Source: Natronorubrum texcoconense (GTDB lineage: Archaea > Halobacteriota > Halobacteria > Halobacteriales > Natrialbaceae). Taken from it: a stretch of 64,000 bases of DNA. Under the pieces are notes generated by a model. The model did not search any database. It saw only the letters and a program-made list of their open reading frames with translations, and was not told the origin of the DNA. The stretch is taken from positions 186,001 to 250,000 of the forward strand of contig NZ_FNFE01000006.1 in NCBI RefSeq assembly GCF_900100335.1, read 5' to 3'. Positions within the stretch are counted from its first letter, which is position 1. Each line of letters begins with the position of its first letter. This document shows positions 32,369 through 34,209 of this stretch, one piece after another. The position numbers and the translations under genes are program-made.

Positions 32369-33304
32369 TCAGTTCGCCGTAAGCGCCTCCTCGAGCCGAT
32401 CCTCGATCGCCTCGAGTTCGTCCTGTAGCGACTCCCCCTGGGCGTCCTCGAGGTCCTCGATACGGTCGGCGAGCCCCTGCAACCGCGAGTACTTCTCGTC
32501 CTCGTCGACGCCGATTTTCTGGACGTAGACGTCCTCGCTGGTGTCGTAGACGTCATCGTCGGCGAGGTCCGTGACGGAGAGGACGACGTCCAGTTTGTCC
32601 CGATCGACCCCCAGAACCCACTCGCGGGGGATGCCGTGTTCGTCGAGCGCGGCGAGGACGGTCTCGTCGTCCTTCGGCCGGCGACGCTCGCGGGTCGTTC
32701 GCCGAACCGTGCCGAAGCGACCGTGGAGTTCCTGGTCGGGTCCGAGGCGCTCGAGCAGTTCGTCTCGCGCCGCCGACCGCACGCCGTCGGCGCCGCGCTG
32801 GACGTCCGAGGCGAGGACGTAGTAGTCGGTTAGCGAGTCGGTGTCCAACGAATCGAGGGATTCGAGGTCGTCAATTTCGAGTCGCTCGACGAGGTGGGCC
32901 AACAGGATGGCGTCGTCGTGGACGCGCTCGGGCGGCGTCCGCGCGTCGGCCGCGGTGACGAGGAACGGACTCTCGCCGCCGGTGGCGTCCTCGGGGGCGA
33001 TGGTGATCGCCCCATCGTCGACGGTGTAGGACTCGGAGAGCGTGATCACCGCGGCGTAGGGTTCGACGCCCGGCTGGAGGTCGTCGATGGCCATCGCACC
33101 GCCCTCGAGTTGCTCGTCGAAGACGCCGAACTGCTCGCGCCAGAGGGGTCGTTCTTCGGTGCTGTCCGCAAAACGGACGAGGATCCGGTCGTCCGCGGTC
33201 GCCTCGAGCCTGAACGGCCGCTCGGAGAGCGGCGTCAGCAGTTGCGCGCCGGCCGGGACGTCCTCGCATCGCGACCGAAGTTCGGTCCAGTTCTCGTCGT
33301 TCAT
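32369..33304 (-). CDS. Conserved haloarchaeal protein of unknown function
   Basis: 311 residues starting MNDENWTELRSRC. The acidic N-terminal 110 residues alternate strands and turns (RPFRLEATADDRILVRFAD, YAAVITLSESYTVDD). A helical middle follows (DAILLAHLVERLEIDDLESL), then a segment with GRFGTVRRTTRERRRPKDDETVLAALDEHGIP, and finally a coiled-coil-like C-terminus (SRLQGLADRIEDLEDAQ, LQDELEAIEDRLEEAL). I do not recognise the family. The palindromic element at 33425-33508 lies 120 bases upstream of its start. Confidence 0.65.
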   Translation of the reverse strand: MNDENWTELRSRCEDVPAGAQLLTPLSERPFRLEATADDRILVRFADSTEERPLWREQFGVFDEQLEGGAMAIDDLQPGVEPYAAVITLSESYTVDDGAITIAPEDATGGESPFLVTAADARTPPERVHDDAILLAHLVERLEIDDLESLDSLDTDSLTDYYVLASDVQRGADGVRSAARDELLERLGPDQELHGRFGTVRRTTRERRRPKDDETVLAALDEHGIPREWVLGVDRDKLDVVLSVTDLADDDVYDTSEDVYVQKIGVDEDEKYSRLQGLADRIEDLEDAQGESLQDELEAIEDRLEEALTAN

Positions 33305-33424
33305 GCGATCCACTCCCACCGTCTCCCGCAAAAAGCGACGGCTGGAATCTGCCCGGTCGTCCCCGCTACCGGATCGTGCGGGGCACGTAACACACGCGAG
33401 GGGGGTCCCCAGTGGCCGTCGTAT

Positions 33425-33508
33425 TATAGTAGACGCTGAAAGTCAATGCACACCCGATCGCAGGACGGCGTTGCGATCGGTGTGTAAATCGTTTCAGTGT
33501 CTACTATA
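33425..33508. repeat. 84-bp palindromic element A (two-stem structure)
   Basis: Outer arms of 17 bases (33425-33441 and 33492-33508) match at 16 positions; the one difference is a G/T pair. An internal loop follows: GTCAATG at 33442-33448 opposite TAAATCG at 33485-33491. The inner stem is CACACCCGATCGCA (33449-33462) against TGCGATCGGTGTG (33472-33484) with one bulged C, closing on the nine-base loop GGACGGCGT. The element fills most of the space between two minus-strand genes. It looks like a dispersed non-autonomous palindromic element. A second structure with the same plan is at 43058-43138. Confidence 0.8.
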
Positions 33509-33543: not shown

Positions 33544-34209
33544 TCACTCGAGGAGCGGCGGTACCTGCGTGAGCGACGTACAGTGATACGTGGGTGCCAC
33601 GTCGAGGGCGTCGTCGACAGACTCGTCGTTCGAGGACTCGCGGGAGAGCAACACCGAGTCGATACCCGCGTTGTCGGCGGCCCGGACGTCGACCGATCGA
33701 TCGCCGACGTAGAGCGCAGACTCGGCCTCGAGGGTATCCATGGCGGCTTCGATGTTCGCCGGGTCGGGCTTCCGACGGGCAAGGCCGTCCGGCGTCAGGG
33801 CACAGCCGTAGACGGTCTCGAAGAGCGGTCGGAGCCGGATCCGGTCGAGGACGGTCGTGACCACGGTCGGATGGTTGTCGCTGACGATGCCCAACGGCAG
33901 GTCGAGCGATCGAACGACGCTCACGTCGTCGTAGACGGAGCGCAGTCCGCGCTCGATTTCGCCGAGTTGGGTACGGATCAGTTCGCGGGCGGCCCGCGTG
34001 CAGAAGACGTCGGTGTCGATCTCGAGGGTTCGACACCGGTCGGCGATCGACTCGAAGTCGCCGCGGACGAGTTCCTGAAGCGTCTCCGCTGCCGGTCCCG
34101 AGCGATCGAACTGCTCGTACGTGCGGTCGAGCGCATCGGACAGCCGTCGGGACGAGGGCGTCTCGACGACGACCCCGTCGAAGTCGAACAGAACCGCGTC
34201 GTACTGCAT
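33544..34209 (-). CDS. HAD-superfamily hydrolase
   Basis: 221 residues. HAD motif I YDAVLFDFDGVVVET, motif II LGIVSDNHPTV, motif III RRKPDPANIEAAM and motif IV ALYVGDRSVDVRAADNAG are all present, with a helical cap inserted after motif I. It is a cytoplasmic phosphatase of the phosphoglycolate phosphatase-like group; the substrate is unknown. It is divergent from the aldehyde oxidoreductase gene across 114 bases, and its transcript would run into palindromic element A. Confidence 0.87.
   Translation of the reverse strand: MQYDAVLFDFDGVVVETPSSRRLSDALDRTYEQFDRSGPAAETLQELVRGDFESIADRCRTLEIDTDVFCTRAARELIRTQLGEIERGLRSVYDDVSVVRSLDLPLGIVSDNHPTVVTTVLDRIRLRPLFETVYGCALTPDGLARRKPDPANIEAAMDTLEAESALYVGDRSVDVRAADNAGIDSVLLSRESSNDESVDDALDVAPTYHCTSLTQVPPLLE

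Follow-up and report, generated by a model that had tools for sequence, protein, structure and literature searches.

Evidence that an 84-bp haloarchaeal palindrome is a MITE of the IS630/Tc1-mariner kind

Introduction

The closest known system to the element described here is the repeat unit of pneumococcus (RUP), for which mobilization by IS630-Spn1 has been proposed (PMC2229807). Insertion into TA with duplication of the TA is established for IS630-family elements (PMC2170065). In the haloarchaea, the nearest described elements are the MITEs, SMRs and PATEs of Haloquadratum (PMC3119063).

Here we analyze a palindrome of Natronorubrum texcoconense that is very probably a MITE of the IS630/Tc1-mariner kind, a non-autonomous element that a DDE transposase of the IS630 family would mobilize in trans. 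We found no description of this element in the open literature and report its family as new, although its kind is well known; ISfinder or a subscription paper may hold a description. Its recognition explains a large set of equal-length palindromes in haloarchaeal genomes that are blank in annotation, and provides a well-documented example of an IS630-type MITE from archaea.

The palindrome and its fold

The window (the whole stretch of DNA analyzed, 64,000 nucleotides) holds one copy, at exactly the coordinates given for a palindromic element by the first-pass annotation and, as it also had it, between a HAD hydrolase gene and a hypothetical gene. The copy lies about 35 bp past the stop of the former and upstream of the latter. 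Its features are:

33425-33508, palindrome of 84 bases including both TAs, between two minus-strand genes
33425..33426, left TA, target-site duplication as judged from the single TA at empty sites of two other copies
33507..33508, right TA, target-site duplication on the same basis (single TA at empty sites of two other copies)
33427..33506, plus strand, the putative MITE proper, 80 bp without coding capacity, with conserved ends TAGTAG...CTACTA
33425..33454, plus strand, left terminal inverted repeat with TA, like the transposase-3' end of a haloarchaeal IS630-type IS
33479..33508, minus strand, right terminal inverted repeat with TA, like the transposase-5' end of the same IS630-type IS
33425..33441, plus strand, left arm of the outer stem, pairing with 33492-33508 (RNA fold)
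33492..33508, plus strand, right arm of the outer stem (RNA fold and 17-mer search)
33447..33486, plus strand, inner stem-loop of 16 bp with one bulge and a 7-nt loop (RNA fold)
33544..34209, minus strand, neighboring HAD-family hydrolase gene (Pfam HAD_2, 1.1e-16)
32369..33331, minus strand, neighboring hypothetical protein gene, without Pfam or NCBIfam match

The outer arms are 17 bp long (TATAGTAGACGCTGAAA / TTTCAGTGTCTACTATA) with one G.T wobble, matching the earlier description. The 17-base end occurs twice in the 64-kb window, both times within the element (0 occurrences expected by chance), and the left and right ends were recovered as an inverted-repeat pair. RNA folding gave the window copy an energy of -53.7 kcal/mol, whereas shuffled sequences averaged -25.9 (z -9.2) and none of 200 folded as well, bearing out the claim that such pairing is unlikely by chance. 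In the minimum-energy fold 33 pairs form, with an internal loop of 5/5 and an apical loop of 7 bases; the single bulged base that had been described in the inner stem is there, but the 7/7 internal loop, 13-bp inner stem and 9-base loop described with it are replaced by 5/5, 16 bp and 7 bases.

Copies and distribution

Searching its own genome with the element returned 50 matches, which reduce to about 40 distinct places because some matches were the opposite strand of one place or the halves of a longer copy. Elsewhere in Natronorubrum we found at least 22-47 matches in seven of the nine congeners, two in G004 and none in G001, and two further Natrialbaceae genera had at least 5 and 10; per-genome match counts in relatives are lower bounds. 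The observation named by the first-pass annotation as speaking against its reading, a single genomic copy with nothing related in close relatives, is therefore not what these genomes hold. Plasmid carriers included Natrinema, Natrialba, Natronococcus, Haloterrigena, Haloarcula, Halomicrobium, Halostella, Halomontanus, Salinibaculum and others, with up to 19 places on one plasmid. Length is highly uniform, exactly 84 bp in 104 of the 120 copies extracted with flanks. In annotated plasmid records the best copy overlapped an annotated gene in 3 of about 43 cases and lay outside genes in about 40 of 43; a typical plasmid has around three quarters of its length in listed genes, which gives the intergenic bias a binomial p of ~ 4e-21.

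The element was absent from the phage records searched. In IMG/VR its core pattern had zero matches; its end pattern had 26, mostly on AT-rich contigs and none with the partner end at 84 bp, for which reasons we attributed them to chance.

At one locus (L135, G007:C40:16848-17047) two identical copies stand 117 bp apart with identical right flanks and N beside one of them, reflecting either local duplication or an assembly artefact.

In eight own-genome copies the apical loop contains an array (40-340 bp) of GC-rich hairpin modules (CGCGGTTCGGAGCGAACGAAGTGAGCGAGAACCGCG, GCGAACGGGGAGCGCAAGCGACCCGTGAGC). Such long forms measure 124-420 bp (L067-L074, L333, L334 and L301; e.g., G000:C2:1297641-1298060) and occur in Natronorubrum, Natrialba magadii (L333) and Natrialba chahannaoensis (L301). 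Across these several genera the arrays are always in the apical loop, in one orientation and at the same point. The same modules also occur without MITE ends (L328, G000:C2:866000-866800; L329; L330), and these are possibly an independent haloarchaeal repeat family.

Insertion sites

Among the extracted copies the base 5' of the left end was C in 65%, and the base 3' of the right end was G in 57%, a bias that pointed to an arrangement of TA, 80 bp and TA within a CTAG target. We found no target duplication longer than TA; in the flanks, direct repeats of at least two bases did not exceed chance. Targets reconstructed on this arrangement read CTAG for 25 of 80 copies (31%), against 1.0% of the TA sites in the window (p=7e-30). 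A CTAG preference of IS630 itself was reportedly described by Tenzen and Ohtsubo in 1991.

Empty sites confirmed the duplication at individual copies. Copy L016 of the window genome (G000 C8:154641-154724) interrupts a reading frame that we take, from its sequence, to be DsrE-like, with a stop codon inside the insert; the gene is uninterrupted in relatives. Joining the L016 flanks through a single TA restores the frame; its alignment with 14 relatives is gap-free at the junction, and in 13 of the 14 the target TA is present as a TAC codon. For copy L010 the empty site, CTGCTACG with one TA, is present in G003, and at L132 two head-to-tail copies have one TA in common. The window site is also empty in G003, where spacer lengths become equal once 82 bp are removed; the exact junction is unreadable there because the spacer has diverged. 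The earlier reading of the palindrome as a mobile element is upheld by these single-TA empty orthologous sites, the syntenic empty window site and the dispersed copies. Separately, the DsrE-like orthologue in G011 (G011:C129:14403-14458) has about 54 extra bases elsewhere in the gene, possibly another small insertion.

A palindrome with GTAG near its left end, in a group of archaea where PATEs have been described (from Haloquadratum; PMC3119063), could also be a REP/RAYT or IS200/IS605-derived, PATE-like sequence that a Y1 transposase moves in single-stranded form. PATEs have near-terminal palindromes and are without terminal inverted repeats or target duplications (PMC3119063), whereas this element has true terminal inverted repeats, a TA duplication and CTAG targeting. 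We dropped this reading because of the duplicated TA at empty sites, and regard it as extremely unlikely.

IS630-family relatives and the transposase

Matches to PF13358 (DDE_3) were found in six of the 10 Natronorubrum genomes. One group of these is an IS630-family IS (NF033545 and PF13358 above cut-off) with ends TATAGTARNNNTTAGAA..., whose transposase consists of two overlapping ORFs (16-nt overlap at L167:1438-2453), a split that resembles that of frameshift-expressed transposases. The conserved part of the transposase found 116 loci in the genome collection, of which we kept 80, from many haloarchaeal genera; a clear end pair about 1059 bp apart was present at 55-56 of these. The IS flanks are RRC, with C at 80-89% at both ends.

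The IS consensus ends (5' TATAGTAnCCGTTAGAACTTTCnGCTCA, 3' TATAGTAGnCATTAGAAATAATTGCTCA) resemble those of the MITE (left TATAGTAGCCACTGAAAGTCAATGCACA, right TATAGTAACAACTGAAACGATTTACACA) in an end-specific way. When the TATAGTA common to both is left out of the scoring, the left MITE end fits the IS 3' profile best (p 2e-4) and the right end is closest to the IS 5' profile (p 1.3e-3); the likeness includes a G/A difference at position 8. Single ISs reached up to 22 of 28 positions identical with the MITE, at either end, and one (L366, TATAGTAGACGCTGGAAATAATTGCTCA) has its first 14 bases in common with the window copy.

Our search for the parent covered the IS630 loci of 10 Natronorubrum genomes, those of 61 Natrialbaceae genomes (about 50 loci read) and the 80 genome-collection loci. 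At none of the more than 100 IS630 loci examined did an autonomous IS carry the inner repeat of the MITE exactly (CTGAAA...TGCACACC), and the other IS630 groups at the loci read had no TATAGTA ends. Mobilization in trans by the TATAGTA IS group or a close relative is therefore what we infer; the exact autonomous parent would be an IS630 element ending TATAGTARNNNCTGAAA. That no exact parent appeared is also what one would expect if the element were a MITE of some other TA-duplicating transposon family. The CTAG preference and the IS630-group likeness of each end, position 8 included, speak against such a parentage, which we consider highly improbable.

The window genome gave no IS630 transposase match, and G009, with 47 element matches, likewise had no DDE_3 match, so the mobilizing enzyme is now either absent from these two genomes or unassembled. 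For the window genome this suggests either copies that have become stranded or a transposase located in an assembly gap.

Near-identical IS630-family frames with six in-frame TGA codons were seen in G032 (13-14 copies, e.g., G032:C1:136916-137701) and G056 (four copies); they may belong to a non-autonomous IS that has spread in trans, or may be an artefact of the frame.

The family is short, non-coding and multicopy, with terminal inverted repeats and empty sites in relatives, which are the general marks of a MITE, and its 2-bp TA duplication, CTAG preference and IS630-like ends are those of the IS630/Tc1-mariner type. The SMR-A reading was also dropped because of the TA duplication; the ends are IS630-like, and the element falls outside the SMR-A definition. 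In the mechanism that we propose, an IS630-family transposase would bind the TATAGTA-type ends of terminal repeats that pair over the 80 bp with only the hairpin loop between them, excise the element and paste it into a TA, preferably within CTAG, thereby duplicating the TA. The chemistry would be cut-and-paste.

Compensation and decay of hairpin pairing

Across 97 distinct copies, 93.6% of the cells in the 33 pairs are paired, and double changes occur at 12 pairs; pair 31-55 is seen as C-G, T-A, G-C and A-T, and pair 32-54 as G-C and C-G. Parsimony on a FastTree tree placed 13 events in which both sides changed along a branch and the pair was kept; permuting the partners gave 0-2. One-sided changes on terminal branches kept the pair in 58 of 185 cases (31%), near the 27% expected from unpaired sites. 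Compensations and breaks stood at 8:25 on internal branches and 5:127 on terminal branches (Fisher p=7e-4). Branch assignment is rough, the tree being built from 84 sites, and some compensations could stem from strand-switch repair of palindromes. Repair of that kind, however, should remove the conserved internal loop and the C.T mismatch in the consensus of the family as well, and both persist.

These data bear on the other option that the first-pass annotation had offered, a conserved RNA structure. A host RNA or regulatory hairpin (3'-UTR stabilizer, processing site or terminator), repetitive by happenstance, would account for the very stable fold (-53.7 kcal/mol), the intergenic placement of copies and the excess of compensatory changes on branches (13, with 0-2 in mispaired controls). 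A host function would, however, protect the pairing after insertion, and what we see is near-neutral decay on terminal branches, with compensation relatively concentrated on internal ones; moreover, the insertion sites are not common to the species checked, and an Rfam search with the element gave no family match up to E=1. We therefore judge a host RNA very unlikely. Compensation on internal branches together with approximately neutral terminal decay is better explained by selection during spread, dead copies then decaying, and the role of the fold appears to lie in mobility, not in any service to the host. Pairing would be kept because both ends must stay recognizable, or fold, for transposition. 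A stronger version, in which spread depends on the full-length hairpin (an extruded cruciform or a folded strand) beyond the two end-binding sites, is rather doubtful in our view; it would explain both the inner-stem compensations, which have no counterpart seen in related ISs, and why long forms grow nowhere but at the apical loop. The family offers a test of whether mobility or the host is what maintains hairpin pairing in a MITE, since here pairing is compensated on multiplying lineages and decays once a copy has landed.

Comparison with known systems

Also close to the element are the TATAGTA haloarchaeal ISs of about 1059 bp (L167, L179, L223-L302), which have in common with the MITE the outer TATAGTA and terminal TA, an RRC flank (CTAG preference) and the left/right end asymmetry. 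They differ in encoding a transposase and in the inner repeat, TTAGAA...TGCTCA as against CTGAAA...TGCACACC in the MITE. The MITEs and SMR-A of Haloquadratum share with our element a haloarchaeal host, short length, lack of coding sequence and terminal inverted repeats (PMC3119063); SMR-A is described as without target duplication and with ends unrelated to any transposon (PMC3119063), and the new element is set apart from it by that description. The Correia/NEMIS and ERIC elements are likewise TA-bounded inverted-repeat elements in many copies, but bacterial and, compared by description, of other lengths and repeat sizes (PMC2229807). RUP, present in about 100 copies, is likewise a short non-coding intergenic repeat with TA targets and IS630-family-like ends (PMC2229807), and the palindrome can be regarded as its archaeal counterpart. 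Comparing again by description, RUP is bacterial and 107 bp long whereas the present element is archaeal and 80 bp; here, unlike in RUP, the exact parent IS was not found, and almost the whole length pairs into one hairpin.
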